Below are positions 4,527 through 26,792 of a stretch of 33,482 bases of DNA, in pieces. Position 1 is the stretch's first letter. The number at the start of each line of letters is the position of its first letter. The position numbers were made by a program, and so were the translations under genes. Source of the DNA: an uncultured Altererythrobacter sp. (GTDB lineage: Bacteria > Pseudomonadota > Alphaproteobacteria > Sphingomonadales > Sphingomonadaceae); NCBI GenBank assembly GCA_938009055.1, contig CALLIO010000281.1:1-33482 (forward strand), read 5' to 3'. The notes below the pieces were generated by a model that saw only the letters and a program-made list of their open reading frames with translations, searched no databases and was not told where the DNA came from.

Positions 4527-4533
4527 GCTTGCC

Positions 4534-5765: not shown

Positions 5766-5838
5766 TGGCGGCGCTTTGCGTTACGCCGCGATGCCATGAG
5801 TTAGCACTGCACTGTCAATTGAACGGAGAATTGGGGCC

Positions 5839-6201
5839 ATGAGCGACGACCCGATGGACTGGATATCCCTTGCTGGCAAAAAAGCGAAGGGCAAGCGCCC
5901 AGCTTATTTCGATGCGCCGGAAAACGAGCGGATGTTGTCCATTCTGATGGCGCTCGTCGCTGAAGTGTCGGTGGTCCGGGAACGGCTGGATACGGTCGAA
6001 CGCGTGCTCGATAAAAAGGGCTCGATTAGCCGCGAAGATATCGAAGCCTACACGCCCGACCGCGACGAAGCTTACGAACGCGGCCTTAAGACCCGCGAAT
6101 ACATCGCCCGCGTGATGCGCGGCGTGCAGCAATCGATGGAAGCCATGCAGAAAAGCGAGCCTGATCTTGAACAGGTCAGCAAGGAAATCCGCGACAGCTA
6201 A
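5839..6201 (+). CDS. Hypothetical protein, 120 aa, charged and helical
   Basis: Complete ORF filling the gap between two minus-strand units; Glu/Arg/Lys-rich helical sequence (MLSILMALVAEVSVVRERLDTVERVLDKK...). Confidence 0.7.
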   Translation: MSDDPMDWISLAGKKAKGKRPAYFDAPENERMLSILMALVAEVSVVRERLDTVERVLDKKGSISREDIEAYTPDRDEAYERGLKTREYIARVMRGVQQSMEAMQKSEPDLEQVSKEIRDS

Positions 6202-6209
6202 AGCGCTGC

Positions 6210-7130: not shown

Positions 7131-8008
7131 ACGCTTTGCTCCTCAAAACTATCGACAATGGCGCCTGCCGTGGTGATCCATGCCCTGCCGTCCCCCGCAA
7201 TATGTTCAAGCACGCGCTCAAACGCGCCGATCCGGTGCGGCTGCCCGATCAAATAGCTGTGCAGCGGAATGCACATGACTGTGCCTGAATTCGCGCCTTC
7301 ATCAGCCAGTCGGTCATATTGGCGGATCAACGTGTCGGCATATTCGCGCGGCGACATATTGTAGATGAAAAAGCCATAATGGTCATTCACCTCAAGCGAG
7401 TAGGGAATGGCTGTCAGGCTACCTTTGGCGACATTGATTTGGGTCGGTTGATCGTCGTGATAAAGGTCGCATGTGTAATCAAGCCCATACTCTGCCAGCA
7501 GATCAAGCGTGCGCGGCGTATGGGTCAGCGCCGGCGCCAGCCAGCCGCGAATGCGCTGACCAGTGGCGCGCTCGACCGTTGCTATCGAATCCTCGATAAT
7601 TGCACGCTCTTGCGCCTCGTCCATGCCGTAAGAATAGCGGGTGTTGTAAATGCCGTGGCTGAAGAACTCCCAGCCGCGATCCCGCGCATCTGCGACGACT
7701 TCGGGGATGTGATCGCATAGAGCAACCGATAGGCTGACCGAGCCAGGAAATCCGTGACGGCTCATCATCTCTGCCATGCGCCAATGCGATATGCGATTGG
7801 CATGATCACGGTGACTGTATCCAACCACATCGGGATGCGGCTTGGGCCAAGATTTGCGATTCGGATTAGCCGGAGGGTCTAGCTCGTAAAATTCCAGATT
7901 AGGCGCGACCCAAACAGCGCAAGTCTTACCTTCAGGCCAAACCAGTTTGCGCCGCCCGCGATAGGGTTGGTACTCGTACAGCCCCGGATCGCTCTTTTGC
8001 GCGCTCAT
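7127..8008 (-). CDS. Polysaccharide deacetylase (NodB/PuuE-like) family hydrolase, paralog 2
   Basis: CAVWVAPNLEFYELDPP, WEFFSHGIYNTRYSYG, GWLAPALTHTPRTLDLLAEYGLDYTCDLYHDDQPT, IPLHSYLIGQPHRIGAF. 4-bp overlap with paralog 1. Confidence 0.85.
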   Translation of the reverse strand: MSAQKSDPGLYEYQPYRGRRKLVWPEGKTCAVWVAPNLEFYELDPPANPNRKSWPKPHPDVVGYSHRDHANRISHWRMAEMMSRHGFPGSVSLSVALCDHIPEVVADARDRGWEFFSHGIYNTRYSYGMDEAQERAIIEDSIATVERATGQRIRGWLAPALTHTPRTLDLLAEYGLDYTCDLYHDDQPTQINVAKGSLTAIPYSLEVNDHYGFFIYNMSPREYADTLIRQYDRLADEGANSGTVMCIPLHSYLIGQPHRIGAFERVLEHIAGDGRAWITTAGAIVDSFEEQSV

Positions 8009-8691
8009 CCATGAGCCTCCAGCCAGTCGATAACCGTGCTGACCGGTTCAACATCGGCATATTTGATCTGCAAATCGGTGAGATTGGCGAAATGATAACT
8101 CTCGTGCTTATCCGCGCATGTCTCGATCGGAACAATGGTGCGATAGCCATAGCTTAGTGCATCGACAGCAGTCGCCCGAACGCAGCCCGAAGTAGAGCCA
8201 CCGGTCACAATCACTGTATCCACCTTGTGCCAGGTCAGATAGCTTGCCAGCTGCGTTTCGAAAAAGGCGCTGGGCATCCGCTTGGTATAGCACAGATCAT
8301 CGCTGCCAATTTCGCAGCGCGGGTCAAATTCGTGGCGCGGCGATCCATAGCGAATGTTCTGGAGCGAATCTTCTGTATCGGTGCGCGTTCCCCAAACGCC
8401 TGCATCACTCGCATCATTCTTATAGGCCACGCGGCTCCAGATAACCGGCATTCCCTCCGCGCGGGCAAGGCTGGAGATCGTATTGATATATTCGATCTGA
8501 CGCGGATCGGTTTCATACGCAGTTTTGAACATGTCGGTGCGCGTATAAGCCTGCTGGACATCGACATTGACGATCGCAAGCTTTGAACCAAAGCCAAACT
8601 TCTTGCGAGCCGGATTGGCCATCAGCTCCTCGAAAATCTGGCGCGCTGTCCGGCCATCCTCGACCATCTTTGTGCCAATTTGTGCCATCAT
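8005..8691 (-). CDS. Cysteine hydrolase, isochorismatase / N-carbamoylsarcosine amidase-like family
   Basis: LAIVNVDVQQAYTR (Asp), CYTKRMPSAFFETQL (Lys), VIVTGGSTSGCVRATAVDALSYGY (Cys): all three triad positions visible. 4-bp overlap with paralog 2. Confidence 0.87.
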   Translation of the reverse strand: MMAQIGTKMVEDGRTARQIFEELMANPARKKFGFGSKLAIVNVDVQQAYTRTDMFKTAYETDPRQIEYINTISSLARAEGMPVIWSRVAYKNDASDAGVWGTRTDTEDSLQNIRYGSPRHEFDPRCEIGSDDLCYTKRMPSAFFETQLASYLTWHKVDTVIVTGGSTSGCVRATAVDALSYGYRTIVPIETCADKHESYHFANLTDLQIKYADVEPVSTVIDWLEAHG

Positions 8692-8757
8692 AAGCCTCCC
8701 GAGGTTACTCCAACGCTATGCGACGCTGCGCAGCCGCGAAGCAGGTGTATTGCCCTA

Positions 8758-8778
8758 TTTGTTCGCACAGCGATTATC
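8758..8778 (+). promoter_or_regulatory. Candidate shared operator (site C): TTTGTTCGCACAGCGATTATC
   Basis: In the 8692-8827 divergent promoter region; 18/21 match to site A and 16/21 to site B. The same intergenic region has a second palindrome-like ACGCTATGCGA (about 8713-8723). Confidence 0.5.
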
Positions 8779-8827
8779 TGTCCGGGTTCGCTGTATATTC
8801 ACGCCCTGTTTTTTGCGATTGGACCTT

Positions 8828-10201
8828 ATGGCCTCAACGCTGTTCGACAAAATATGGAATCGCCACGCGATCAAGCCGCTGACCGGTCGCAATGCGCTGG
8901 TCGCGATTGATCGGATATTCCTGCACGAACGGACCGGAGCAGTTGCCCTCAATTCATTAAGCGAGGCAGGCCGCAAGCCTATTGATCCGGCCCGTGTCTT
9001 TTGCGTGATGGATCATATCGTCGATACACGGCCAGGGCGCGGCGATGCGACGCTTATGCCAGATGGGCAGGCCTTTATTACGGAGACCCGCTCCGCTGCG
9101 ACAAAAGCGGGCATCAATTTGTTCGATGTTACCGACGCTGACCAAGGCATAACCCATGTTATCTCACCAGAACTGGGTATCGTCTTACCTGGCTCAACCC
9201 TGATCGCACCGGACAGTCATACATGCACACAGGGCGCGTTTGGCGCGCTGGCATGGGGTGTCGGCTCGTCCGAGGCTGAACATGCAATGGCAACGGGCGC
9301 ATTGCGAGTAAAACGGCCAGAAACAATGCGGGTCACGTTTGAAGGCACGCTTGGTGAAGGTGCCAGCGCGAAAGACATGATCCTTGCGCTTATTGCGCAA
9401 TATTCAGCTTCTGGCGGGCGCGGAAAAGTGATCGAGTTTAACGGCCCTGCGGTGCGCGCGCTCGACATGGAAGCCCGCATGACTTTGTGCAATATGGCAA
9501 CCGAATTTAGCGCGATGAGCGCCATCATTGCTCCTGACGAAAAGACTTTCGGTTATCTGCATGGACGGCGTTTCGCACCCAAAGGCGCGTTGTGGGACGC
9601 TGCGATCGAAAGCTGGCACGCGCTGCATTCCGATCCCGACGCCAGTTTCGATGAAGAGATCACAATCGACGCCGGTACCGTCGCGCCGATGATCAGCTGG
9701 GGCACGAGCGCGGATGCCGCGATTGCCATCAATGGCGCAGTGCCGCCAAGTGCCGATGCGCAAATGCTTGATTATATGGCTTTGGAAAGCGGCCAAAAGC
9801 TGGTCGGTCTACCTATTGATGCAGCCTTTATCGGCAGCTGCACCAATTCGCGCCTCAGCGATTTGCGTCGCGCTGCCAAAGTGCTCGACGGGCGTAAAGT
9901 TGCTCAAGGCACCAAAGCTGTCTGCGTGCCGGGTTCCTCTGCGGTCAAACGCGCGGCTGAAGCAGAAGGGCTGCACGAAATCTTTGCGCAGGCTGGCTTC
10001 GAATGGAGAGAGAGCGGCTGCTCCATGTGCTTTTTCGCAGGCGGCGAAAGCTTTGCCGAAGGGTCGCGCGTTGTCAGCTCGACCAATCGCAGTTTCCGCA
10101 ACCGGCAGGGCCACCGCGTCAAAACCCATATCGCCAGCCCCGAAACGGTCGCGGCCAGCGCGATCAAGGGCGCGATCGCCGATCATAGAGAGCTTGCATG
10201 A
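8828..10201 (+). CDS. Aconitase/3-isopropylmalate dehydratase large-subunit family (LeuC/DmdA-like hydro-lyase)
   Basis: FDKIWNRHAI, FCVMDHIVDTRPG, DSHTCTQGAFGALAWGVGSSEAEH, IGSCTNSRLSDL, GCSMCFFAGG (Fe-S cysteines), SSTNRSFRNRQG. ATG at 8828 chosen; the 8567 ORF start overlaps the divergent gene. Confidence 0.9.
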   Translation: MASTLFDKIWNRHAIKPLTGRNALVAIDRIFLHERTGAVALNSLSEAGRKPIDPARVFCVMDHIVDTRPGRGDATLMPDGQAFITETRSAATKAGINLFDVTDADQGITHVISPELGIVLPGSTLIAPDSHTCTQGAFGALAWGVGSSEAEHAMATGALRVKRPETMRVTFEGTLGEGASAKDMILALIAQYSASGGRGKVIEFNGPAVRALDMEARMTLCNMATEFSAMSAIIAPDEKTFGYLHGRRFAPKGALWDAAIESWHALHSDPDASFDEEITIDAGTVAPMISWGTSADAAIAINGAVPPSADAQMLDYMALESGQKLVGLPIDAAFIGSCTNSRLSDLRRAAKVLDGRKVAQGTKAVCVPGSSAVKRAAEAEGLHEIFAQAGFEWRESGCSMCFFAGGESFAEGSRVVSSTNRSFRNRQGHRVKTHIASPETVAASAIKGAIADHRELA

Positions 10202-10806
10202 TGGGCCGCCCGATCACCTCCCTCACATCGCGTGCGGCGCCGCTGCTGTATGCCAATATCGACACCGATCAGATCATCCCATCGCGCGAGATGCGCAGCA
10301 CAGGCAAAACCGGTCTGGCCAAAGGGATGTTTGCTGGATGGCGCTATCTTGCGGGAAGCGACTACGCGCCTGACCCCGCTTTCGTGCTCAATGATCCGCA
10401 ATTCGCCGGTGCTGAAATTCTTCTGGCGAGAGAGAATTTCGGCTGCGGTTCAAGCCGCGAACATGCCGTTTGGGCGCTGGCCGAATTTGGCATTCGCGCA
10501 ATTATCGCGCCCAGCTTCGCGCCGATTTTTGAAAACAATTGCTCGCGCGGGGGCGTGCTGTGCGTGCGATTGCCTGCCGAAGTCATCAATCAAATCGCCG
10601 CTAGCGATGCAAATGTCTCTATCGACCTACCCGATCAAAGCGTTTCCTTACCCGATGGATCACGCTGGACCTTCACAATCGACGAGGAAGCCAAAGCGAT
10701 GCTGATCGGCGGTTTGGATTCAATTGAACTCACTATGCAAAGCGCGGATGACATTCGCCGTTGGCACGATACGGACAAGAACGAGCGCCCCTGGATTTAC
10801 CTATGA
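10198..10806 (+). CDS. 3-isopropylmalate dehydratase small-subunit family (LeuD/DmdB-like)
   Basis: LLYANIDTDQIIPSREM, REHAVWALAEFGIRAIIAPSFAPIFENNCSRGGVL; 4-bp overlap with the large subunit. Confidence 0.9.
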   Translation: MMGRPITSLTSRAAPLLYANIDTDQIIPSREMRSTGKTGLAKGMFAGWRYLAGSDYAPDPAFVLNDPQFAGAEILLARENFGCGSSREHAVWALAEFGIRAIIAPSFAPIFENNCSRGGVLCVRLPAEVINQIAASDANVSIDLPDQSVSLPDGSRWTFTIDEEAKAMLIGGLDSIELTMQSADDIRRWHDTDKNERPWIYL

Positions 10807-11750
10807 GCAATGCAATCACAATCAGCGAAGTTGGTCCGCGCGATGGCCTTCAAAGCATCGACCAGATCATGCCGCTTGCCGCCAAGAAGGCTTGGATCGC
10901 AGCAGAAGCCGCCGCTGGTGTGAGCGAGATTGAGGTCGGCAGCTTCGTTCCGCCCAGCCTCCTGCCACAAATGGCTGATACCGCCGAAGTCGTGGCCTTT
11001 GCGAAAACGATCCCTGATTTGGATGTCGCCGTGCTCGTCCCCAATTTCAAAGGGGCCGAGCGAGCCATTGCGGCAGGCGCCGACAAGATATCGATCCCCT
11101 TCTCCATGTCAGAGACACACAGCCTCAACAATCTGCGCAAGACCCATGAGCAAATGATCGAGGAGATCAAAGCGGTCGCCGATCTGGTTGCACGCCAACC
11201 CGAAGCCTCGCGCCCCTATTTCGAAGTTGGACTGTCCACCGCCTTTGGCTGCACGATGGAAGGCCCGATTGCGACCGAACAAATTGTGCGGCTCGCCGAA
11301 CAATCCATCGCTGCCGGCGCGCAGGAATTGTGCCTTTCCGATACCACCGGATATGCCAATCCTGCCCAAGTGCGCGATCTGGTCAAACGAGTGAAAAGCG
11401 CGGTTGGCGATGACAAGCTCAACAGCTTGCATTTGCACAATACGCGCGGGTTGGGCCTCGCCAATGTTGTCGCGGGGCTAGAGGTTGGCATCACCACTTT
11501 TGATGCCTCGCTCTGCGGTTTGGGCGGCTGCCCATTTGCGCCGGGTGCATCGGGCAATATCGTGACAGAAGATCTCGTCTTCATGCTCAGCGCGATGGGC
11601 GTGGAGACCGGCATTGATCTGGATGCCCTACTTCAGACCCGCACCATTCTGGCAGAGGCTCTGCCTGGCGAGCCGCTCTACGGTTTCACTGCCGATGCCG
11701 GTGTGCCGCTCGGCTTTGAAAGCACACAAAATCTGAAGGCACACGGATGA
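10803..11750 (+). CDS. Hydroxymethylglutaryl-CoA lyase family (DRE-TIM metallolyase)
   Basis: ITISEVGPRDGLQS, LCLSDTTGYANPAQV, LHLHNTRGLGLANV, LCGLGGCPFAPGASGNIVTEDL. ATG at 10803 gives a 4-bp overlap with the upstream gene. Confidence 0.9.
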   Translation: MSNAITISEVGPRDGLQSIDQIMPLAAKKAWIAAEAAAGVSEIEVGSFVPPSLLPQMADTAEVVAFAKTIPDLDVAVLVPNFKGAERAIAAGADKISIPFSMSETHSLNNLRKTHEQMIEEIKAVADLVARQPEASRPYFEVGLSTAFGCTMEGPIATEQIVRLAEQSIAAGAQELCLSDTTGYANPAQVRDLVKRVKSAVGDDKLNSLHLHNTRGLGLANVVAGLEVGITTFDASLCGLGGCPFAPGASGNIVTEDLVFMLSAMGVETGIDLDALLQTRTILAEALPGEPLYGFTADAGVPLGFESTQNLKAHG

Positions 11751-12940
11751 CGCAGCCGAAAACTCCCAGCCCGCTCGCAGGGCTCAAGGTTATAGAGTTT
11801 ACCCATATGGTCATGGGGCCGACCGTGGGCGCAGTCTTGGCCTCGCTTGGGGCTGAGGTTACTCGGGTCGAGCCGATTGGTGGCGACAGGACCCGCCGGT
11901 TGCGGGGGTCGGGCGCAGGATATTTCCCGATGTACAACCGGCATAAATCCAGCATTTGCCTCGATCTGAAGCAAGACGCAGGCAAGAACATTGCACGCAA
12001 GCTGATTGGCGAGGCAGACATTCTGGTCGAGAATTATCGCCCCGGCGCGATGGATCGGCTTGGTCTTGGCTATGAGGATTCGTCCGCAACCAATGAGCGC
12101 TTGATCTATTGCTCGCAGAAAGGGTTTCTGCCCGGCCCTTATGAAAACCGCACCGCGCTCGATGAAGTCGCCCAGATGATGGGCGGCCTAGCCTATATGA
12201 CAGGCCCGCCGGGTCAGCCTTTGCGCGCAGGGGCAAGCGTGATCGATGTGGCTGGCGGCATGTTCGGCGTGATCGGTATTCTTGCAGCCATTGAAGAGCG
12301 CCACCGGACCGGCAAAGGGCAAAAGGTTCAATCATCGCTGTTCGAGACCACCGCCTATCTTGTGGGTCAGCATATGGCGCAATTGGCTGTTACCGGCGAG
12401 CCCGCCCAACCCATGCCAGTGCGCGTGTCGGCCTGGGCGATCTACGATGTGTTTGAGACAAAGGACGAGCCGCTCTTCTTGGGTGTTGTCAGCGATCCGC
12501 TTTGGGCCAAGTTTTGCGAAGCGTTTGGACTAGACGAGCTTTGGGCCAATGAAGCCTTGCGCGAAAACAATGCGCGGGTCGCCGCGCGCGAGCAAATCAT
12601 GCCGCAAGTGCGCGCTTTGATGGGCAGCATGACGCGCGCTGAAATTATCGCTAAGGTCGAAGGCACGGGCATCCCCTTTGCTCCGATTGGCAAGCCTGAA
12701 GATCTGTTCGAAGACGAGCATCTGACCGCATCTGGCGCGTTGGAAAGCGTGACGCTGAGCGATGGCAGCACAACGTCCCTGCCCACCCTTCCGATTGAGA
12801 TGGGCGGACAATTGCTGGCTCGCGACGCGCAATTGGCAGAAATTGGCCGCGATGCGCAGGCAATTCTCGCTGATCTGGGCTATTCCGCTGAAGCCATCGC
12901 AGAACTCGGCGCCAATGGCGTCACGCAAATCGCACAGTAA
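11747..12940 (+). CDS. CaiB/BaiF (family III) CoA-transferase
   Basis: LAGLKVIEFTHMVMGPTVGAVLASLGAEVTRVEP, YNRHKSSICLDLK, ADILVENYRPGAMDRLGLGYE. Confidence 0.92.
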   Translation: MTQPKTPSPLAGLKVIEFTHMVMGPTVGAVLASLGAEVTRVEPIGGDRTRRLRGSGAGYFPMYNRHKSSICLDLKQDAGKNIARKLIGEADILVENYRPGAMDRLGLGYEDSSATNERLIYCSQKGFLPGPYENRTALDEVAQMMGGLAYMTGPPGQPLRAGASVIDVAGGMFGVIGILAAIEERHRTGKGQKVQSSLFETTAYLVGQHMAQLAVTGEPAQPMPVRVSAWAIYDVFETKDEPLFLGVVSDPLWAKFCEAFGLDELWANEALRENNARVAAREQIMPQVRALMGSMTRAEIIAKVEGTGIPFAPIGKPEDLFEDEHLTASGALESVTLSDGSTTSLPTLPIEMGGQLLARDAQLAEIGRDAQAILADLGYSAEAIAELGANGVTQIAQ

Positions 12941-12966
12941 AACCAAGAGCATGGGTGAGACACTAA

Positions 12967-13896
12967 ATGTTCGAATATGATTATGTTCCGATAACTGAGC
13001 GCGGCCCACTGCAATGGCCGGGCAATGCGCGCGTCGCCTTGGTCATTACGATCAATATGGAAACGTGGGACCTGACCAAGGACACCGACCAGCCCTATTA
13101 TGCTGGCGGCCCGGCTTTGCTTCCCAATATGCTAGCCGGGCGCATTCCCGACTATCCCAATTACAGTTGGCGCGAATATGGCCAGCGCGTGGGGGTCTGG
13201 CGGATCATCGACATGCTCGATCAACTGGATGCCAAGGCCAGCTGCACGACCAATGCCGTCACCTTTGAACGGCGCAGCGCGATGACGCAGGCCTGCCTTG
13301 ATCGCGGCTGGGAACTCATCGCCCACAATTACGAGCAAGGCGAATTGCTCACCGATTTTCACGATGATCCAGAGGCCGAGCGCGACATCATCCGCCGCTC
13401 GATTGCCATTTATGAAGAGCATGTCGGCAAGCGGCCCAAGGGCTGGCTTTCTTCCAGCCTGCGCGGCACCCTCAACACGCCGAGCATTTTGGCCGAGGAA
13501 GGCTTCAGTTTTTACTGCGACATTATGAATGACGACCAGCCTTACATGATCCGCACCGATGCCGGACCGCTGGTCGCCGTTCCCTATTCCAACGTCATCA
13601 ACGACTTCACCATCGTGACGCGCAACATGCGCACGTGTGACGAATATCGCGACCTGCTGATTGAGGAATTGTCCGTGCTTCATCAAGAAGGCGCGGCACA
13701 CCCGCGTATCATGAATGTTGGGCTCCATCCGCATGTTTCAGGCCGCGCGCATATGATCCGCGCCCTGCGCGAATTCATCCAGTTTGCCCAAGGTCTCGAT
13801 GGCGTTTGGTGGCCAACCCGCGAAGAATTGGCCGATCATTATTCCGCCAATCACGAAAGCCATATTCCTGGCCAATTGGCAGCAAAGGGAGAATAA
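12967..13896 (+). CDS. Polysaccharide deacetylase (NodB/PuuE-like) family hydrolase, paralog 3
   Basis: ALVITINMETWDL, WELIAHNYEQGELL, GKRPKGWLSSSLRGTLNTPSILAEEGFSFYCDIMNDDQPY; homologous pattern to paralogs 1 and 2. Confidence 0.85.
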   Translation: MFEYDYVPITERGPLQWPGNARVALVITINMETWDLTKDTDQPYYAGGPALLPNMLAGRIPDYPNYSWREYGQRVGVWRIIDMLDQLDAKASCTTNAVTFERRSAMTQACLDRGWELIAHNYEQGELLTDFHDDPEAERDIIRRSIAIYEEHVGKRPKGWLSSSLRGTLNTPSILAEEGFSFYCDIMNDDQPYMIRTDAGPLVAVPYSNVINDFTIVTRNMRTCDEYRDLLIEELSVLHQEGAAHPRIMNVGLHPHVSGRAHMIRALREFIQFAQGLDGVWWPTREELADHYSANHESHIPGQLAAKGE

Positions 13897-13898
13897 GC

Positions 13899-15413
13899 AT
13901 GAGCGATATTTCCATTGGCAGTTTCTCACCAAGCGCGGCCGCTCAAGCCTTTCTCGATAAGGGCAAGCACAAGCTTTTCATCGGCGGCGAATGGGTGGAT
14001 GCAAGCGGGGGCGGACATTTTCCAACCCATGATCCGGCCAGTGGTGATGTCATTGGCCAGATCGCAAAGGGTGGAGCAGGCGATGTCGAAAAAGCTGTTA
14101 CCGCCGCGCGCGAGGCTTTCGAAACCGGACCGTGGAGCGCGATGACGCCGATGGAGCGCAGCGCTATACTTCAGCGCATCGCCGATCTGATGGAAGCCAA
14201 TATTGACGAATTGGCAGAACTGGAAACGCTCGATCAGGGCAAGGCGCTGTATGTAGGGCGCTGGGCCGAAATCCCCGGCGCAATCGCGCAGTTTCGCTAC
14301 TTTGCAGGGCTGGCTCCCGCGATTGAGGGATCCTCCATTCCAACCTCAATCAATTACCAGCCAGAGGGTAAAGAAATCTTCGCCTACACACGCAAGGAAG
14401 CTGTGGGCGTCGTGGGCGCAATCGTGCCGTGGAACAGCCCATTGGTGCTCACAGCGATGAAGCTAGCGCCCGCGCTGGCGGCGGGTTGCACATTGGTCTT
14501 GAAACCAGCTGAAGACACTTCGCTCACCGCGCTTCGGCTGGTGGAATTGATGGCAGAGGCGGGTCTTCCTGCTGGGGTCATCAACCTCATTACCGGACTC
14601 GGCGCCGAGGCAGGCTCGCACCTTGCCTCCCATCCCGACGTGAACAAAATCGCCTTTACCGGATCGACAGCCACTGGCCGCGCGATTGTCGATGCGTCCA
14701 AGGGCAATCTTAAGCGCGTCACCTTGGAATTGGGCGGAAAATCGCCGGTCATCATTATGCCGGATGCTGACCTAGATGCTGCAATCCCGGGCGCAGCCAA
14801 TGCGATCTTCTTCAATGGCGGTCAGGTCTGCATCGCGGGCTCGCGGCTCTATGCGCATTCGAGCGTATATGACCAAGTCGTTGAGGGAATTGTCGCAGCG
14901 GCAAAGTCAATCAAACTCGGCCACGGCCTTGATCCGGAAACCCACATGGGCCCGCTGGTTTCCGCACAACATGCGGCGAAGGTCGCAAGCTATATTGAAA
15001 GCGCAAAAGCAGAAGGCGGAACCGTGCATTGCGGCGGTAATGTCACCGGTCCCAATGCCAGCTTCGTCGAGCCGACCGTCATCACCGGATTGGCACCCGA
15101 TGCGAAGGCGCTTTGCGAAGAAATCTTTGGCCCTGTGCTGGTCATCCAGAGCTTTGATAATACCGATGAAGTCGTCGCAGCAGCGAACAACAGTGAATAT
15201 GGCCTTGCAGCTGGCATCTGGTCCGAAGGGCTCTCCAACGCAACGCGGCTTGCTAGCAGGCTGAATGCCGGAACAGTATGGATCAACAGCCATGCGATGT
15301 ATGATGCCTCGCTCCCCATCGGCGGTACCAAGCAATCGGGTTATGGACGCGATAGTGGTCAAGCAGCGCTTGAAAACTATCTGGAGCTTAAGACCGTCTG
15401 CGCTGTTGTATGA
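13899..15413 (+). CDS. Aldehyde dehydrogenase family protein
   Basis: FIGGEWVDA, GVVGAIVPWNSPL, FTGSTATGRAI, VTLELGGKSPVII, FNGGQVCIAGSRL (catalytic Cys), IGGTKQSGYGRDSG. ATG at 13899. Confidence 0.93.
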   Translation: MSDISIGSFSPSAAAQAFLDKGKHKLFIGGEWVDASGGGHFPTHDPASGDVIGQIAKGGAGDVEKAVTAAREAFETGPWSAMTPMERSAILQRIADLMEANIDELAELETLDQGKALYVGRWAEIPGAIAQFRYFAGLAPAIEGSSIPTSINYQPEGKEIFAYTRKEAVGVVGAIVPWNSPLVLTAMKLAPALAAGCTLVLKPAEDTSLTALRLVELMAEAGLPAGVINLITGLGAEAGSHLASHPDVNKIAFTGSTATGRAIVDASKGNLKRVTLELGGKSPVIIMPDADLDAAIPGAANAIFFNGGQVCIAGSRLYAHSSVYDQVVEGIVAAAKSIKLGHGLDPETHMGPLVSAQHAAKVASYIESAKAEGGTVHCGGNVTGPNASFVEPTVITGLAPDAKALCEEIFGPVLVIQSFDNTDEVVAAANNSEYGLAAGIWSEGLSNATRLASRLNAGTVWINSHAMYDASLPIGGTKQSGYGRDSGQAALENYLELKTVCAVV

Positions 15414-16315
15414 CCGCGCGCGCGCTTCACCACGGCGCCATTTTGTGCGCGACGGCTGCAGTGCCCGATCTCGATATGGCGCTGGCGGATTATCATGACC
15501 GGCTAGGCTTGAAGATTGTTTTCAAGGGCACAGTGCCCGACGCTCAGGCGCTTTCGTGGGATGCACCAGCGATCGCGGGAAACCGCCAGGCTGTGCTCCA
15601 GCCAACATCCGGCGCGCAAAGCTATATTCGCTTGGTCGAACAACCTTTGGCCGATGGTTTTCGCGCGACACAAACCTATGGTTGGGCCGCATTCGAGCTG
15701 AGCGTTGAAGACGCATTTTCCTGGCCGACAGCCTTGGAAGGCAGCGGGTTTGATATCGTCGGCCCTCCCCGCCATATTGCGGGGCTCGATCATTTGATCG
15801 CGATGCAAATGGTCGGGCGCGGGCAAGAGATGATCTATCTCAACGAAGTGCGCGACAACACGCCGACAACTGATTTGCCAAAGGCGCAATCTCCGGTAGA
15901 TCTAACCTTTATCTGCATTTTGGCAGCCAAGGATCGGCAGGCGGCAACAGACTGGTATTGCGAAAAATTGGGCCTCGATGAAAGCGAGACGCACACGATA
16001 CCCTACTCCTCGATCAACCGCGCGTTTGAGCTGCCCGATACACATAAAACCAGCCTGACCATGGTGCATAAGGGGCGCATGCCGATTATCGAGGTGGATG
16101 GATATCCGGACATAGCCCGTGAACGCCCGACAGTCGCAGGGCAATTGCCGCCCGGAAACTCGATTTTGACGCTGGCGGTCGTTGACCTTGATGCAATTCC
16201 TCTCGAGCCGATCACCAATATCCAGCGCGCGGAAAACGCACCTTATGAGGGCAGGCGATCAGCCACATTTAAAGGGTCAGAGGGCGAGCTAATCGAGCTG
16301 GTCGAGATCAGTTAG
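15410..16315 (+). CDS. VOC (glyoxalase/extradiol dioxygenase fold) protein with two VOC-like halves
   Basis: ATAAVPDLDMALADYHDRLGLKIVFKG... and second half CILAAKDRQAATDWYCEKLGLDESETH; ATGA overlap with the ALDH gene. Confidence 0.75.
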   Translation: MTARALHHGAILCATAAVPDLDMALADYHDRLGLKIVFKGTVPDAQALSWDAPAIAGNRQAVLQPTSGAQSYIRLVEQPLADGFRATQTYGWAAFELSVEDAFSWPTALEGSGFDIVGPPRHIAGLDHLIAMQMVGRGQEMIYLNEVRDNTPTTDLPKAQSPVDLTFICILAAKDRQAATDWYCEKLGLDESETHTIPYSSINRAFELPDTHKTSLTMVHKGRMPIIEVDGYPDIARERPTVAGQLPPGNSILTLAVVDLDAIPLEPITNIQRAENAPYEGRRSATFKGSEGELIELVEIS

Positions 16316-17977: not shown

Positions 17978-19015
17978 TTATGCAGCGAGCGGAGCGGCCT
18001 GCGTCGCATTAATGATCCACTTGCCAAGATCACCGGCTGGCACGTGGGTGACTTCGACATCCAGCCCGCACACAGCATCGAACCGATTGTTGGGTCCGAT
18101 GCTATCACCTTCTTGGACGAGGACGCTCGAGCCTTTTTTGGCTAAAGCTTCGATCCCCCGAACACCGTCTTCATGGCTGGCGGCGAGAACACCGCCAATG
18201 GCCTGGCAGCCGGCGCGCGCGACACTGGCAAACAGCATGTCGGCCGATGGGCGATGTCCTGCAATAGGATCTCGATCAATCAACTTGATGATGGGCGCTT
18301 GGCCATCTTCGATCACGATATGGTGGCTCTTGCCGTAAGCCAGATGCACCGTGCCTGAGACAAGGGGCGCGTCATTTTGCGCCGTGGCGATCTTGCAAGC
18401 GACCGATGGAAGCAGGCGATCAACGGCGCGCTCCGCCATTTCCGCCTCCGCATCGAGCACAATGAGAGTGGGTGGACAGTTTGAAGGCAATGCAGCAATA
18501 ACCTCGCGCATGACTTCGATGCTGTCCGAACTAGCGGCCAGCACCACCACTTTGCCATCAGGTTCATAGCCGCCCATTGCAGCTGCATCATCGCCATCTT
18601 CGCCAGACCCATATTTGGACTGCGCCGCTTTGATGACAATCTCGCCCAGTTTGTTGACGGTCGCGGTGAATTCCTCTTGCGAGGTATGAAGCGGCTTGGG
18701 AAAGCAGTCCACTGCGCCCAATTCCAAAGCCTTTTGCGCGGTGCCTGTGCCTTCTTGAGTCACACTGGAGAGCATGATGACCGGCATTGGCCGCGTTTCC
18801 ATAAGCTCTTCGAGAAATTCCATCCCGGTCATGCCCGGCATTTCCACATCGAGCGTTAGGACGTCAGGCCTAAGCTCCTCGATAACATCGCGCGCGTCAT
18901 CGGCATTGCGGGCCGTGCCGACAACTTCCACGCCCTTGGCTTGATCGAGAATATCGCAAAACAAGGCGCGCATCGCGGCTGAATCATCTACTACAACTAC
19001 GCGGACATTAGACAT
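17978..19015 (-). CDS. CheB-like protein: intact receiver domain plus degenerate methylesterase domain
   Basis: Receiver VVVVDDSAAMR/LTLDVEMPGMTGMEF/AVDCFPKP; C-terminal CheB fold with HRPSADMLFASVA, but VVVLAASSDS replaces IGASTGG and LIVLDAE replaces LIVQHM. Confidence 0.85.
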   Translation of the reverse strand: MSNVRVVVVDDSAAMRALFCDILDQAKGVEVVGTARNADDARDVIEELRPDVLTLDVEMPGMTGMEFLEELMETRPMPVIMLSSVTQEGTGTAQKALELGAVDCFPKPLHTSQEEFTATVNKLGEIVIKAAQSKYGSGEDGDDAAAMGGYEPDGKVVVLAASSDSIEVMREVIAALPSNCPPTLIVLDAEAEMAERAVDRLLPSVACKIATAQNDAPLVSGTVHLAYGKSHHIVIEDGQAPIIKLIDRDPIAGHRPSADMLFASVARAGCQAIGGVLAASHEDGVRGIEALAKKGSSVLVQEGDSIGPNNRFDAVCGLDVEVTHVPAGDLGKWIINATQAAPLAA

Positions 19016-19218: not shown

Positions 19219-21060
19219 ATGAGCATTCAGCGGCTGAGCCGACTTGGCGGTATCGCAGTGATTGGTTTTATTTTGTTGGCCGCGATGGTGGCTGCTTGGG
19301 GCATCAATGAAATTCGCTTCGGCGGGGAGATGCATCGCAAGAGTCAGCAGCTCAATGAATTCAACGCCGATATTCTCCCCCCGCCCGAATATCTGGTTGA
19401 GCCCTTCATGGAATCGCTGCTTCTGGCAAAATATCCAGAGGAGTACGCTTTCCATGCTGAAAAGCTTGCCGAACAAAGAGAGGTCTGGGTTGAACGCGCA
19501 GACTATTGGGCGCAGTCCGACCTTGATGCACAGCTAAAAACTGGAGTGGCAGCAACTGTCGCTAATGAAGGGCGTGCATTTTGGAACGAAGTGGACGAAA
19601 GGCTGAAACCTGCCGTCCGAAGCGGCAACACCGAAGCGGTCAACCGTTCCCTCAACCGATTGCTCGCCATCTATCGCGACCACCGCACAGCGATCGACGG
19701 CCTGGTGGCCAATACGGCGCAAATTCAAGGCGAGCTTGAGGCGACAAGCGCTTCGCGGGTTGCTTGGATCAGCCTCTTGCTCGCACTGTCCGGTGTGTTG
19801 ATTGTCGCCTCCACGATCGCTGGCATTCTTTTGATCCAACGCAAGGTTCTCAAGCCGCTTTCAACCACTGCAGACACCATGGCCAGCATGGCCAGCGGTG
19901 ACTTGGAGGTTGGCCAGACAAGCGAGCATCGCCAGGACGAAATCGGCACAATGACGCGCTCGATTGAAGTCTTCCGCGAGGCCTCGCGTGCCCAGCACGA
20001 TAGTGCGGCCAAACAGGAACGCATCGTCAAGCGGCTTTCGGGCGCACTCGAAGAGCTTGCAGACGGCAACCTCACTGTTTCGATCAACGAAGCAATGGAC
20101 CCTGAATACGAAGCTCTGCGCGAAGCCTTCAACTCCTCAGTTGAGCGTTTGGCCGAGATGATCGATCAGGTCCGAACCTCTGCAGGAAGCGTCAACACTG
20201 GCGCTGACGAAATCCGCGCCGCTTCCGATGATTTGGCGCGCCGCAATGAACAGCAGGCCGCCAGCCTTGAGGAAACCGCAGCCGCGATGAGCCAAGTTAC
20301 CGATCTGGTCAAAAAATCCGCTGACAACGCCGCTCAAGCACAAGGATCGATGGCGGAAACCCATCGCGAAGCAGCCGAAGGCGGAGATGTCGTCAAGAAG
20401 GCGGTGAACGCGATGGCATCGATTGAAAAATCAGCCCAAGAGATCACGCAGATTATCGATGTGATCGATGGAATTGCATTCCAGACCAACCTGCTCGCTC
20501 TTAATGCAGGCGTCGAAGCTGCAAGGGCAGGTGATGCTGGCAAGGGCTTTGCTGTTGTCGCCAACGAGGTCCGCGCGCTGGCCCAGCGCAGCGCCGATGC
20601 TGCTCGCGACATCAAAGAGCTTATCAACGCCAGTACCCAGCAAGTGGGCGATGGGGTCAACCTTGTCGATGAAACCGGCGAATTGCTCGAAGCTATTGTT
20701 ACTCGTGTGGCAGCAGTCACCGAACAAGTCAGCGATATTGCCGAAATGGCCGCGACGCAGGCGAACAATCTCGAGCAGGTGAATGGTTCGGTTAGCGATA
20801 TGGACCGGATGACGCAGCAAAATGCCGCAATGGTCGAGGAATCGACAGCCGCAGCGCGCAGCCTTGCAGATGAAGCGGGTGAATTAGGCCGGCTCGTCAA
20901 ACAGTTCCAAGTTCCGGGTGAAGGCCAGGGCTTCTCTCAATTTTCTGGCTCACCTGCCCCGAAAGCAAGCCCTTCGCGTGCGAAGATTACATCCCCTCGT
21001 GTGAGCGGGAACCTCGCCCTTAAGGAAACTCCCGACGACCAGGATTGGAGCGAATTCTAA
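19219..21060 (+). CDS. Methyl-accepting chemotaxis protein (two TM segments, HAMP, MA signalling domain, C-terminal pentapeptide)
   Basis: TM near N terminus and at [67 protein letters not shown] hairpin tip; C-terminal DWSEF. Confidence 0.95.
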
Positions 21061-21084: not shown

Positions 21085-21345
21085 ATGCAAATAATTGAAT
21101 TGCCATCCCATTGTGACCGGGCGGCGGCAGCCGCGCTGCATCCAGAATTCCTTGCCGCTGCTGGCGAGAAGGCAACCAAAGTGGATGCGAGCAAGGTTGA
21201 GAGATTGGGCTTTGCAGTGATGCAACTGCTCGTCTCTGCAGACCATACTGAAGGGGGCATTGCTCTGAATGCCCCTTCAGAACCCTTCGTTGATACGCTG
21301 CGTTTGGCGGGCCTCGAAACACTGCTTGCTGACGGAGCTGAATGA
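21085..21345 (+). CDS. Small STAS-domain-like protein in che operon
   Basis: KATKVDASKVERLGFAVMQLLVSAD and PSEPFVDTLRLAGLETLL STAS pattern; between mcp and cheA; GGGAG ribosome-binding site 7 nt before ATG 21085. Confidence 0.7.
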   Translation: MQIIELPSHCDRAAAAALHPEFLAAAGEKATKVDASKVERLGFAVMQLLVSADHTEGGIALNAPSEPFVDTLRLAGLETLLADGAE

Positions 21346-23465
21346 TGGATGCGAACGAGATTCAGAACATATTCTTCGTCGAATGCGAGGAATCGCTCGA
21401 GGCAGCAGAGGCGGGGCTTGATGTCTGCAAAGCGGGGACGCAGGATGCAGAAACGATCAATGCGATCTTCCGCGCGGTGCATTCGATCAAAGGCGGCGCA
21501 GGTGCATTCGGATATGCTGCGCTCCAGACCTTTACGCATTCATTCGAGACGTTGCTGGCCGATGTGCGCGAAGACAAAGTTCCGATTGAAGCGGATCTTG
21601 TCAACCAACTGCTGATAGCGCTCGATTGCTTGCGCGATCATGTCGATGCTGCACGATCAGCAACTGTGCCCCCTGATGATAGCGCTATCCTGCAATATCT
21701 AAAGGACGCTCATGAAGCGGTCAGTGCTGCGCCAAAAAAGGCGCAAGCCGACACCAAAGCCAGCGGCGACGATGACATAGACGCTTTGCTCGATGACCTT
21801 TTGGGCGAACCAGAAAAGACCAAAAGCGCTGACAGCCACGATGAGCCGGCGGGCGCGGCGCCCGAATGGTTCCTTCACCTGCGCCCACATGCAGGCGCGA
21901 TGAGCAACGGTGCTGAGCCGCTCTTGCTGCTGCGAGAGGTGAGCGATCTTGGCGGATCATGCCATGACTGTGATCTAAAGCAGGTACCAGTCCTTGACGA
22001 ATTTGACCCGGACTTAGGGCATCTCGGCTGGACATTCCGGATGGATGGCAAGGTAAAGCATGACGACGTCAAGGATGTCTTCGACTTCGCCCAAGAGGAT
22101 TACACGCTCATCTTTGGCAGTAGTGAAGATGACATCAAGACAAAGCTAGATGACCCCCAGACCGCGTCTTCTGATGATGAGGCGGCCAGTGAGGCAAAGC
22201 AAACCGACGGCGACAAACAGCCAGATACAAAAGCGCCCAATGCGCCAGCTGCTGCGGCAACGACTGCGCCTGCTCCAACCGTCGCCACGCAATCAATCCG
22301 AATCGATCTTGGCAAGCTGGATAAGCTGATTGACGGGGTTGGCGAATTGGTGATCGCGCAAGCTATGCTGACCCAGCGTCTGGCTGACCAAGACATTGCC
22401 CATATCGAAGAACTCTCGCTACTCGACACGCTTGTGCGCGATGTTCAAGAGCATGCCATGGCTTTCCGCGCCCAGCCGATTGGATCGGTCTTCAGCCGGG
22501 TCCCCCGATTGCTGCGCGAGCTGTCATCTTCGACCGGCAAGCATGTAAAGCTGAAGGTTCAAGGCGAAAGTACCGAGCTTGATAAGACCGTGATTGAGCG
22601 GCTCGGCGAACCGCTGACGCACCTTATTCGCAACGCTGTCGACCACGGTATCGAAGATGCTGAGGAACGGCGGGCACAGGGCAAGGATCCCGAAGGCACG
22701 CTGACCTTGTCAGCCGAACAAAAGGCTGGCCGTGTCGTCATCAATATCTCGGACGATGGACGCGGTATCAATGCGGAAAAAGTGCGCAAAAAAGCCATCG
22801 CAAACGGCCTGATTACTGAAGATGCCCAGCTGAGCGAGGAAGAGATCAACAATCTCGTCTTTGCCCCGGGTTTTTCGACTGCTGAGCAAGTCTCCAGCGT
22901 TTCAGGGCGCGGTGTTGGCATGGATGTTGTGCGCCAAAATGTGAAAGAACTGGGCGGCCGCATCACAATTGAATCGACGCCAGGTAGCGGCACATCCTTC
23001 ATCCTAGCGCTGCCTCTGACGCTTGCCATTTCTGATGGAATGATTGTGCAAAGCGGCGATCAATCGCTGGTCATCCCGTTGGCCCATGTGGTTGAGAGCC
23101 TGCGACCATTGCCCGCTGACCTAAAGGGCATGGGATATGATCGGCAGATGCTCAATGTGCGCGGACATTTCCTGCCGGTGCTCCCGCTCGATCAGCTGAC
23201 AGGCGCGTCGACAAGAATGGCCGACCCTTGCGAAGGTGTGGTTGTCATTGTCGAAACAGAGCGTTGCGGCCAAGCCGCCTTGCTGGTCGACACCATTACC
23301 GATCAGCGCCAATTTGTGATCAAGAGCTTGGATACGCACTATCACGCTGTCGATGGAGTGGCCGGTGCGACGATCCTTGGCAATGGCCGTGTGTCTCTGA
23401 TTGTTGATGTCGATCATCTGGTCCAATCCGCCGGTCACACCGGCGATTGGCAGGTCGCAGCCTAG
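21342..23465 (+). CDS. cheA: Chemotaxis histidine kinase CheA
   Basis: Hpt FRAVHSIKGGAGAFGY; HLIRNAVDHGIEDAEER; ISDDGRGIN; GRGVGMDVVRQNV; C-terminal CheW-like domain. Confidence 0.95.
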   Translation: MMDANEIQNIFFVECEESLEAAEAGLDVCKAGTQDAETINAIFRAVHSIKGGAGAFGYAALQTFTHSFETLLADVREDKVPIEADLVNQLLIALDCLRDHVDAARSATVPPDDSAILQYLKDAHEAVSAAPKKAQADTKASGDDDIDALLDDLLGEPEKTKSADSHDEPAGAAPEWFLHLRPHAGAMSNGAEPLLLLREVSDLGGSCHDCDLKQVPVLDEFDPDLGHLGWTFRMDGKVKHDDVKDVFDFAQEDYTLIFGSSEDDIKTKLDDPQTASSDDEAASEAKQTDGDKQPDTKAPNAPAAAATTAPAPTVATQSIRIDLGKLDKLIDGVGELVIAQAMLTQRLADQDIAHIEELSLLDTLVRDVQEHAMAFRAQPIGSVFSRVPRLLRELSSSTGKHVKLKVQGESTELDKTVIERLGEPLTHLIRNAVDHGIEDAEERRAQGKDPEGTLTLSAEQKAGRVVINISDDGRGINAEKVRKKAIANGLITEDAQLSEEEINNLVFAPGFSTAEQVSSVSGRGVGMDVVRQNVKELGGRITIESTPGSGTSFILALPLTLAISDGMIVQSGDQSLVIPLAHVVESLRPLPADLKGMGYDRQMLNVRGHFLPVLPLDQLTGASTRMADPCEGVVVIVETERCGQAALLVDTITDQRQFVIKSLDTHYHAVDGVAGATILGNGRVSLIVDVDHLVQSAGHTGDWQVAA

Positions 23466-23467: not shown

Positions 23468-24343
23468 ATGCAAAGCCAAACAATCACAAACCCAAGCGAA
23501 CCCCTGATCCCAGGTGTAAGCCCGCAGGTCTATTCAGCCTCTGACTTTCAAAGCGTTGCGCAATTGGTGCGACAGAAGGCTGGAATTGTCCTGAGCGAAG
23601 GCAAGAAGATGCTGGTCTATTCGCGGCTCGCCCCTTTGCTGCGCAAACATCAATGCGCGACGTTTCGTGACTATCTAGAGCTGATTAATGTGGATGCGGA
23701 ACTCTCAACCCGCACGATTGCCGCGCTGACCACCAACCACACCTATTTCAATCGGGAATCGCATCATTACGACCACTTCGCCAGCGAAGTGCGGCCCAAC
23801 CTGCTTGCCGCGGCGTCAAAAGGCGATCCGGTGCGGATATGGTCCGCGGGCTGCTCGAGCGGTCAGGAAGTATGGACCTTGATGATGGTGCTGCTTGGAG
23901 AGCAGAAGCAAACAGGCCGAAAGATCGCAGGGCAAAACATCGTCGCGCTTGCCAGCGACTTGGCCGACCATGCTGTTAAAGCAGGAATACGCGCCAGCTA
24001 CGAAACCGAAGACATGAAGGCCGTGCCCGAAGTGCTGCGCCGGAACTGGTGCCGCGAGGAAGGCCGTGCAACTGAAGTCGGACCAGAGCTTCGCACGCTG
24101 GTGCGTTTTCGCCAGCTCAACCTGCTTGGGCAATGGCCCATCCGCAATCTGTTCGACGTGATCTTTTGCCGCAACGTCATGATCTATTTCGATCACGAAA
24201 CGAAAGAAGAACTGGTCTGGCGACTGGCCAACCAGTTGAAACCGGGCGGCCACCTTTACATCGGGCATTCAGAGCGCGTTTCAGGGCGCGCCTCTGCTCT
24301 TCTCGATCTGATTGGCCCCACTATCTACCGCAGGAGAGATTGA
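23468..24343 (+). CDS. cheR: Chemotaxis protein methyltransferase CheR
   Basis: TTNHTYFNRESHHYDHF, IWSAGCSSGQEVWTL (SAM motif), VIFCRNVMIYFD, LKPGGHLYIGHSE. Confidence 0.93.
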   Translation: MQSQTITNPSEPLIPGVSPQVYSASDFQSVAQLVRQKAGIVLSEGKKMLVYSRLAPLLRKHQCATFRDYLELINVDAELSTRTIAALTTNHTYFNRESHHYDHFASEVRPNLLAAASKGDPVRIWSAGCSSGQEVWTLMMVLLGEQKQTGRKIAGQNIVALASDLADHAVKAGIRASYETEDMKAVPEVLRRNWCREEGRATEVGPELRTLVRFRQLNLLGQWPIRNLFDVIFCRNVMIYFDHETKEELVWRLANQLKPGGHLYIGHSERVSGRASALLDLIGPTIYRRRD

Positions 24344-25380
24344 TGCTGAAAAGAGTTCTCATCGTTGATGATTCTGCGCTCATGCGCAAAGTCCTGCAGG
24401 CCAGACTGGCCAAAGAGGACGATATTGAGGTCGTCGGCTGCGCATGTGATGCGAACGAGGCGCGCACATTGATGAAAGCCTTGGACCCAGACGTTGTCAC
24501 ACTCGATATCGAAATGCCGGGCATGGATGGGCTGTCGTTCCTCAAAAAGATCATGGATTTGCGCCCTACCCCGGTAATTATTGTCTCCGGATCAACACAA
24601 GAAGGCAACAACACGACGGCGCTTGCCCTGCAATTGGGCGCGGTCAGCTGTTACGCAAAAAGCGATCGCTACGGCGGAATCCCGGGCGAAGACGGCGGCA
24701 AATTGGCTGAGCTGGTGCGCGAGGCTGCTCAAGCAAATTTGGGCTCCGGACGTGCTGGGATGAAACAAGCTAAGGGCGACATCAGATCGAAGATCAAGCC
24801 TTGCACAAGGCTGATCGCAATCGGCGCGTCGACCGGCGGTGTCGAAGCCCTGCGAACCTTGCTTTCCGGCTTTCCTGAAGATTGCCCCCCGACCATGATT
24901 GTTCAGCATATCAACGCACGCTTTGCACCGGCCGTTTCGCAATCACTCGATAGCGCTTGCGATGCGCGGGTCATGCTCGCGGAAAGCGACACCGTAATAA
25001 GGCGCGGCCATATCTATCTCGCACCAGGGGGTGATCGCCATATGCGCGTCGCCAAGGCCGGAGCAAAAGGATTGCGGGTGGTTCTGCGCGCCGGGGCGCC
25101 CGTGTCTGGGCACCAACCAAGTGTCGATGCTCTGTTTGAATCGGTTGCTGAAATTGTCGGCTCGGATGCTCTTGGAGTCTTGATGACCGGCATGGGTCAG
25201 GATGGTGCAAAAGGGCTTTTGGCGTTGTCGGAAAAGGGTGCTTGGACAATTGCTCAGGACGAGGCGACCTCAGTTGTATTTGGAATGCCGCGCGCAGCGA
25301 TTGAGCTGGGTGCAGTGAGCGAAGTTCTTCCATTGACCAAGATTGCAGATCAAGTCTGCCTTGCATCGGGTGCACAATAA
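24343..25380 (+). CDS. cheB: Chemotaxis response regulator protein-glutamate methylesterase CheB (canonical)
   Basis: LIVDDSALMR receiver; IAIGASTGGVEALR (Ser), MIVQHINARFAP (His), VLMTGMGQDGAKG (Asp). Start at 24343, TGATG junction with cheR. Confidence 0.95.
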   Translation: MLKRVLIVDDSALMRKVLQARLAKEDDIEVVGCACDANEARTLMKALDPDVVTLDIEMPGMDGLSFLKKIMDLRPTPVIIVSGSTQEGNNTTALALQLGAVSCYAKSDRYGGIPGEDGGKLAELVREAAQANLGSGRAGMKQAKGDIRSKIKPCTRLIAIGASTGGVEALRTLLSGFPEDCPPTMIVQHINARFAPAVSQSLDSACDARVMLAESDTVIRRGHIYLAPGGDRHMRVAKAGAKGLRVVLRAGAPVSGHQPSVDALFESVAEIVGSDALGVLMTGMGQDGAKGLLALSEKGAWTIAQDEATSVVFGMPRAAIELGAVSEVLPLTKIADQVCLASGAQ

Positions 25381-25937
25381 TGGAGCGCAGAGCCCCGCTG
25401 CGTTCGTCAGCTGAACCCACCAAGATCACGATCATGCAAGGCCAGGCGCGCGCCAGCGGTGATACTTCGCTGGAATACACCACGATCCTTGGCAGCTGTG
25501 TTGCGACATGCCTGTTTGATCCGGTCGCCAAGGTTGGCGGAATGAACCATTTTCTGCTTGCCGAGCCTCCCTCCAACAGAGATCCAGAGCATTTTGACGA
25601 ACATTACGGCCTTTTCCTGATGGAGCTGCTCGTCAACGAAACCTTGGCGCTTGGTGCAAAGAAATCGCGGCTGAAGGCACGGCTCTATGGTGGGGCAAAT
25701 ATCCGCGATGGGCTTGCGCCAATCGGCAGCGCAAATGCGGCCTTTGCGCGCAGTTTTCTGCTGAGAGAGTCAATAGAACTGACGCAAGAAGATCTCGAGG
25801 GGCGCCATGCCCGCCGGGTTCATTTCCTTCCGAGCCGAGGGTTGGTCCGTTGTCGCACATTGAACGACGAACCCTTGCCTATGCAGCAACCCCTAAGGCG
25901 GCCGAAATCCGCCGGTGGTGATGTTGAACTATTCTAA
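25380..25937 (+). CDS. cheD: Chemoreceptor glutamine deamidase CheD
   Basis: TTILGSCVATCLFDPVAKVGGMNHFLLAEP; CheD Cys/His region. Confidence 0.92.
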   Translation: MERRAPLRSSAEPTKITIMQGQARASGDTSLEYTTILGSCVATCLFDPVAKVGGMNHFLLAEPPSNRDPEHFDEHYGLFLMELLVNETLALGAKKSRLKARLYGGANIRDGLAPIGSANAAFARSFLLRESIELTQEDLEGRHARRVHFLPSRGLVRCRTLNDEPLPMQQPLRRPKSAGGDVELF

Positions 25938-25956: not shown

Positions 25957-26328
25957 ATGCACAAGGCGACCCGAATACTCACAGTGGATGACAGCCCAAG
26001 CATGCGCGCTTTGCTGATGCAGGCGCTTACGGCTCATGGGTTTGATGTGGAACAGGCCGAGGATGGCGTAGAAGCGCTTGAATGGCTTGCCACCAATGAA
26101 GTCGATCTGGTCATCACCGACATCAACATGCCGCGCATGGATGGGTTCGGATTGATCGAAAATCTGCGCGGCAGCGCGCGTCATACCGACCGGCCTATTC
26201 TGGTTCTCACGACCGAAAGCTCGGACGAGAAGAAAAAGCGGGCGAGAGACGCCGGTGCAACCGGATGGATCGTCAAACCGTTTGACGCAGAAAAGCTGGC
26301 AACTGCGGTTCGCCGCGTGACACACTAA
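25957..26328 (+). CDS. cheY: CheY-like single-domain response regulator
   Basis: ILTVDDSPSMRALLMQAL, DLVITDINMPRMDGFGLI, LVLTTESSDEKKKRARDAGATGWIVKPF. Confidence 0.93.
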   Translation: MHKATRILTVDDSPSMRALLMQALTAHGFDVEQAEDGVEALEWLATNEVDLVITDINMPRMDGFGLIENLRGSARHTDRPILVLTTESSDEKKKRARDAGATGWIVKPFDAEKLATAVRRVTH

Positions 26329-26351: not shown

Positions 26352-26792
26352 ATGGGCCGCGAACTCATTACATTCGAAGTCGCCGGACAATTGTTCGGTA
26401 TCGACATCATGGCCATCCGCGAGATTCGCGCTTGGTCGCCTGTCACCGTTCTTCCGCGCGTGCCGGATTATGTCGCAGGCGTTGTGAATTTGCGCGGGGC
26501 CGTGCTGCCGGTCATTGATTTGCCGGTTCGGCTTGGCTGGTCGCCAACAGAGGCCACACCGCGCAACCCGATAATCGTAACCGAGCACAATGGGCAATCG
26601 CGCGGCCTGATCGTTCATACGGTCAATGATATCGTCTCAATTGAAGCGGAAAGCATTCAAAAGCCCGAAGCCACAACCCAGGATGCGATCAGCGGCTTTC
26701 TTGAAGGTCTGGCGCCGCTTGGTGATGAGATGGTCATGGTAATTGATCTCGATTCTTTGATGACTGACCATGCACAGGATTTGGCCGCGTGA
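26352..26792 (+). CDS. cheW: Chemotaxis coupling protein CheW
   Basis: LITFEVAGQLFGIDIMAIREIRAW, LPRVPDYVAGVVNLRGAVLPVIDL. Confidence 0.94.
   Translation: MGRELITFEVAGQLFGIDIMAIREIRAWSPVTVLPRVPDYVAGVVNLRGAVLPVIDLPVRLGWSPTEATPRNPIIVTEHNGQSRGLIVHTVNDIVSIEAESIQKPEATTQDAISGFLEGLAPLGDEMVMVIDLDSLMTDHAQDLAA

Follow-up and report, generated by a model that had tools for sequence, protein, structure and literature searches.

The chemotaxis locus in the 33,482-nucleotide stretch of DNA analysed here (the window) encodes two CheB-like proteins, which raises the question of what the second one does. From the sequence alone, it had been predicted to be a pseudo-methylesterase that serves as a decoy, a CheD/CheR regulator or a phosphate sink. 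Our comparisons across related genomes suggest that this protein, here called psCheB, is an inactive CheB twin retained as a signalling part of the chemotaxis system.

Catalytic residues of psCheB

The coordinates, minus strand and length originally given for the psCheB gene were correct by an ORF check and are listed with those of its neighbours in Table 1. Pfam recognised Response_reg (residues 6-112, 82 bits) and CheB_methylest (PF01339, residues 157-304) in the protein, the latter at 83 bits against a cut-off of 24, compared with 199.7 bits for the neighbouring canonical CheB. The canonical protein also scored above the NCBIfam CheB cut-off, and psCheB fell far under it in two models (219 vs 293 and 174.6 vs 342 bits).

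Table 1. Positions of psCheB, its parts and the adjoining chemotaxis genes in the window
Feature	Position	Strand	Description	Basis
psCheB ORF	17978..19015	-	345 aa, receiver and degenerate CheB effector	ORF and translation, Pfam
psCheB receiver domain	18650..19015	-	residues 1-122; D10, D11, D56, S83, K107 intact	
psCheB beta5-alpha5-linker	18608..18703	-	residues 105-136	windowed conservation
psCheB degenerate methylesterase fold	17981..18559	-	residues 153-345	Foldseek
psCheB S162	18530..18532	-	nucleophile position (Salmonella S164)	alignments
psCheB D188	18452..18454	-	where catalytic His190 would be	alignments
psCheB D283	18167..18169	-	catalytic-Asp position (Salmonella D286), retained	105/105 relatives
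MCP	19219..21060	+	divergent neighbour of psCheB	translation, Pfam
C-terminal pentapeptide of MCP	codons 21043-21057	+	DWSEF	translation
cheA	21342..23465	+	Hpt, dimerisation, ATPase, CheW-like	Pfam
cheR	23471..24343	+		Pfam
canonical cheB	24343..25380	+	intact Ser-His-Asp	Pfam/NCBIfam, alignment, AF2
cheD	25380..25937	+		Pfam
cheY	25957..26328	+		Pfam
cheW	26352..26792	+		Pfam

CheB hydrolyses its substrate with a Ser164-His190-Asp286 triad (Salmonella numbering). When aligned with Salmonella CheB, psCheB read S-D-D at these positions, and its motifs were changed from IGASTGG to LAASSDS, from QHM to LDA and from LTGMGxDGA to LAASHEDGV, which removes the catalytic His together with the oxyanion glycines and the GMG loop. 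This alignment upheld the prediction of a degenerate site and refined it: the His and the oxyanion/substrate motifs are gone, Asp283 is retained, and Ser162 is present in the window protein, although nearly all orthologs of the genus have Gly there. The two candidates for an alternative active-site His, H254 and H281, showed no conservation in the aligned orthologs. The neighbouring canonical CheB keeps all three catalytic residues, as had been stated.

The triad was likewise absent from all 105 distinct relatives of psCheB, far more than coincidence would produce. In a split of 105 psCheB members from 103 CheBs of the same genomes and outgroups, which was made on catalytic residues and with which the effector HMM scores agreed in all new loci, the Ser164-equivalent was found in 61 psCheBs, the His190-equivalent in 14, both together in 0 and the Asp286-equivalent in 105; Ser-His-Asp was present in every CheB. 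Circular labelling was rejected as an explanation, because classification by the effector HMM gave 27 further members, all 27 without the triad. An alignment artefact was rejected as well: a one-column shift is possible in Novosphingobium (LQAE vs QHM), but His occupies neither column.

Most Sphingomonas psCheBs lack the Ser and retain the His; Novosphingobium psCheBs lack the His and retain the Ser; those of Erythrobacteraceae lack both, with the exception of Ser162 in the window protein. The replacements were Q, N, D, P, R, G, A or E for the His, or D, E, G or A for the Ser. Because the lineages differ in which catalytic residue was lost, catalysis appears to have been the dispensable part. 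The oxyanion and VFGMP motifs are gone in Erythrobacteraceae and in most Sphingomonas psCheBs, and TGMG is retained in many Novosphingobium members. In the H-x-P-S motif of active CheB the His is near-invariant (100/103) and the following residue varies, whereas in the x-R-P-S of psCheB the His position is free and the following residue is Arg in 103 of the 105 (R257-equivalent). As judged from these alignments, the fixed Arg is a new constraint adjoining the old active site, more than would be left by decay. The pseudo-methylesterase status of psCheB is well supported at the level of sequence, and the protein should be described as a CheB-derived pseudo-enzyme rather than filed as a CheB methylesterase.

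Distribution and gene neighbourhood

An ortholog of psCheB was found in 12 of 37 genomes of the genus. Scanning named genomes revealed relatives in Erythrobacter, Porphyrobacter, Altererythrobacter, Novosphingobium and Sphingomonas. Further members came from 251 genomes sampled across the family. All belonged to Sphingomonadaceae sensu lato (Erythrobacter, Novosphingobium, Sphingomonas); no psCheB was found outside this group in a class-level sample of 289 genomes, where the sole match at 1e-50 (genome G346) proved to be an intact CheB. In phylogenetic trees, including those from which all catalytic columns had been removed, a single branch with SH-aLRT support of 99 set psCheB apart, and by this measure it is a family of single origin. 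In the receiver-only tree the psCheB grouping costs one extra change, for which a single very long CheB branch (L166) is the probable reason.

In the window, psCheB and the MCP gene are divergent with a gap of 203 bp, and the MCP is followed by cheA, cheR, cheB, cheD, cheY and cheW. The family as a whole adjoins an intact CheB in cheA-R-B-D-Y-W clusters, and the great majority of psCheBs lie inside a che cluster; conservation of the degenerate paralog beside che clusters, which had been proposed as a check, was borne out. The divergent transcription from the MCP noted in the original prediction holds in the window but is a trait of particular lineages. Elsewhere, ...cheY-cheW-psCheB is the most frequent arrangement, and in Sphingomonas-type clusters the genes run MCP-A-R-B-D-Y-W-psCheB on a single strand with psCheB last. 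The psCheB genes of Novosphingobium and Erythrobacteraceae are transcribed divergently from the cluster, sometimes with a recognised MCP in between and sometimes not, and several Erythrobacter genomes have an MCP-psCheB pair away from the che cluster. Some Novosphingobium have no recognised MCP beside psCheB, and an MCP as obligatory partner was rejected as a general rule. Of the MCPs in related loci, 47/54 end in a [WFY]xx[WFY] pentapeptide, mostly DWSEF.

Some psCheBs were found apart from such clusters. Three genomes that belong to a single genus (G175, G234 and G280; loci L141, L149 and L153) have a cheY-psCheB pair without cognate cheA or cheB, and locus L112 has a similar pair with no cheA/cheB cluster adjoining. 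These four orphans share a 3-residue deletion in alpha5 and are probably one lineage. Two other orphans, L042 (genome G030) and L105, are fast-evolving and have lost the RPS motif; G030 has neither FliG nor a cognate CheA, and psCheB is still present. In two 2.1-Mb genomes (G276 and G085; loci L144 and L145), psCheB follows a short divergent pair of CheA-like and MCP-like genes, and the intact che cluster (L163) lies elsewhere.

Further observations concern the surroundings of the locus. The genome of the window has a second chemosensory cluster with its own intact CheB (G000:C346 9530-10645, L044; 27% identical), and most genomes of the genus have a cluster of this type, whether or not FliG is present. 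A set of catabolic genes occupies window positions 719-16315 (FAD monooxygenase, Amdase-like protein, PEP-mutase/isocitrate-lyase-like lyase, HMGL-like lyase, aconitase-family (LeuC/LeuD-like) hydratase, CoA transferase, isochorismatase and three polysaccharide-deacetylase-like proteins); we take this set to resemble a nicotinate/dimethylmaleate-type or related degradation route.

Receiver conservation and predicted structure

The central prediction, a pseudo-methylesterase with an intact receiver, finds strong support in conservation, phylogeny and selection. D10, D11, D56, S83 and K107 were invariant in a 57-row alignment, and D10, D11 and D56 were present in 105/105 distinct relatives. Intact CheBs of about 19 Novosphingobium-type loci (L092 5444-6463, for example) carry Glu rather than Asp as the first of the receiver's acidic residues. 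The dN/dS ratio was about 0.02-0.08 in both psCheB domains and 0.11 in one fast orphan pair, rough values that come only from pairs with measurable dS, many saturated pairs being excluded.

In matched genomes, receiver conservation was 84.4% for psCheB against 71.1% for CheB in Novosphingobium, 77.0 against 63.1% in Sphingomonas and 71.3 against 68.9% in Erythrobacteraceae, and the psCheB values were close to those of CheY (84.7, 73.4 and 79.9%, respectively). The effector domains showed the reverse, with conservation of 60.3 v 70.7, 56.7 v 66.0 and 40.7 v 60.2% for psCheB v CheB in the same order. When conservation was compared in windows along the protein, the psCheB receiver gained over CheB at beta1-alpha1, alpha4 and the beta5-alpha5-linker, and the windows of loss matched the catalytic motifs. 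Along residues 105-136 in Novosphingobium, column identities for psCheB/CheB were 94/48, 84/32, 92/63 and 88/53%; in Erythrobacteraceae, the family of the window itself, this over-conservation was weak or absent. These data say that the strongest constraint in psCheB falls on the receiver and that hydrolysis would be immaterial.

The AF2 model of psCheB was confident within domains (mean pLDDT 91.3), and its pTM of 0.67 makes the arrangement between domains low-confidence. Foldseek matched the catalytic domain to CheB of T. maritima (3sft, TMt 0.88) and to 1chd (TMt 0.79). The canonical CheB was modelled in the closed arrangement of 1a2o and 6ymz (pTM 0.87, TM 0.89 to 1a2o), whereas the full psCheB model reached a TM of about 0.50 against these structures, with an rmsd of about 9.5. 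The alignments supplied to AF2 were equally deep for both proteins. The models suggest that the autoinhibitory domain packing may have been lost in psCheB.

Proposed function and known systems

Other chemotaxis systems shorten the CheY-P lifetime with CheZ, with CheC/CheX or through a second CheY. In the 15 psCheB-carrying genomes covered, with positive controls, CheZ was found in 0/15 and CheC and CheX in 1/15 each; absence of CheZ is common among bacteria. The psCheB clusters have one cheY, and in the same family most of the alternative clusters without psCheB, which are of the cheY-A-(W)-R-B-Y-D type, have a second, a contrast between different cluster classes with few independent events and with cheY counts blurred by ORF overextension. 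S. meliloti has no CheZ, and its CheY1 acts as a phosphate sink (PMC8429497). With this precedent, and with the receiver as the most constrained part and hydrolysis immaterial, the simplest reading is that psCheB accepts phosphate from CheA-P in competition with CheY and CheB. We put the probability that psCheB is such a pseudo-methylesterase response regulator, acting as a sink or buffer for CheA phosphate, at about one half. The cognate CheA of the cluster would phosphorylate D56, and psCheB-P would be unable to demethylate receptors; as a competing acceptor, psCheB would shorten CheY-P and temper CheB-P. Its phosphorylatable receiver is co-encoded with CheA and CheY, as expected of a sink. 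The cheY-psCheB pairs of G175, G234, G280 and L112 also favour this reading. However, a sink needs a receiver alone, and an effector under strong purifying selection counts against a pure sink, as does the orphan psCheB in G030. Because the effector is under selection, with its fixed Arg, it must bind something besides the sink role; the CheB fold would persist as a folded module for binding, with the array as the probable partner. The natural candidate is the receptor tail, since E. coli CheB binds it via the alpha5-linker, preferentially when open (PMC8609364).

Tail binding could also be the main function. Here psCheB-P would open and dock via the alpha5-linker on the DWSEF tail or on receptor helices, a possibility that we hold only tentatively; equally tentative is the effect it would have, in which access of CheB-P and CheR is blocked and adaptation is tuned without hydrolysis. 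The pentapeptides of the MCPs fit this proposal, and the E. coli CheB pentapeptide site lies at the alpha5-linker and, according to one proposal, forms only when the protein is open (PMC8609364). In Novosphingobium the alpha5-linker is the site of greatest over-conservation in psCheB, and AF2 closed the canonical CheB but not psCheB. Against this, the linker signal fades in Erythrobacteraceae, alpha1 and alpha4 are over-conserved too although they lie outside the tether site, and an open state is unsupported by AF2. The orphans cut both ways: L112, L141, L149 and L153 share their alpha5 deletion, but they probably count as a single lineage, and orphan psCheBs survive without cognate MCPs nearby. 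Those same orphans would suit a regulator partnered with CheY whose target lies outside the receptor array, either at the motor or in a different kinase pathway; the location in the che cluster would then be only ancestral. We consider this unlikely: cheY-psCheB pairs and the orphans of G030 and L105 point towards it, but most psCheBs sit inside a che cluster, G175, G234 and G280 retain another CheA as a possible phosphate source, and the G030-type protein is fast-evolving without its RPS motif.

An altered or residual hydrolase using the Ser162 region, D283 and R255 is quite unlikely, even in Novosphingobium members with Ser, GG, TGMG and Asp. It would account for the frequency of the Ser164-, Asp286- and R257-equivalents and for the retained TGMG. 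Nevertheless, the Asp is the only common candidate catalytic position, His being gone in most members and Ser in the rest; the oxyanion and VFGMP motifs are missing from Erythrobacteraceae and most Sphingomonas members, and the His candidates of the window protein are unconserved. Loss of catalytic motifs and an effector that diverges more than that of CheB might also mark a decaying cheB duplicate, a pseudogene in the making. This is extremely improbable and was ruled out by dN/dS and by open frames throughout the family: neither frameshifts or stops in many relatives nor dN/dS near 1 were seen, and psCheB is conserved across genera, its receiver surpassing that of the active CheB in conservation. 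Among the functions named in the original prediction, the phosphate sink is favoured, the decoy stays a candidate, and nothing pointed to a CheD/CheR regulator. It is conceivable, though doubtful, that both roles are combined clade-wide, the receiver draining CheA phosphate, the effector competing with CheB and CheR for the tail, and psCheB replacing a CheY phosphatase and second CheY.

An annotated CheB is treated everywhere as an enzyme, and the label 'second cheB', as applied in Sphingomonas, Novosphingobium and Erythrobacter, probably misleads. A single-origin family that retained the switch and discarded the chemistry implies that a core adaptation enzyme can turn into a signalling accessory, and psCheB offers a tractable case for signal termination without CheZ in a large, ecologically important group. 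Every domain of psCheB is already known; none of the open-access papers searched described a conserved pseudo-CheB from Sphingomonadaceae.

CheB enzymes (Salmonella 1a2o; P. atrosepticum 6ymz) share with psCheB the two domains, the CheB-type receiver, the effector fold and the che-cluster location. Unlike them, psCheB has no triad, has lost the oxyanion and VFGMP motifs, carries x-R-P-S for H-x-P-S and is not predicted to pack closed. The S. meliloti sink CheY1, which is aided by CheS, is likewise an extra phosphorylatable receiver besides the output CheY in a CheZ-less alphaproteobacterium; the psCheB receiver, in contrast, is borne on a conserved pseudo-enzyme domain, and its sink action is what we infer. 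CheB and CheR tethered by pentapeptides (E. coli NWETF; P. aeruginosa CheB2/McpB) resemble the psCheB system in its DWSEF receptor ends and conserved alpha5-linker, but psCheB has no catalytic outcome and its tail binding is putative. The CheW-like FrzB of M. xanthus, which is reported not to bind its CheA (PMC6952110), belongs to an unrelated protein family but, like psCheB, is a degenerate second Che copy retained for regulation.
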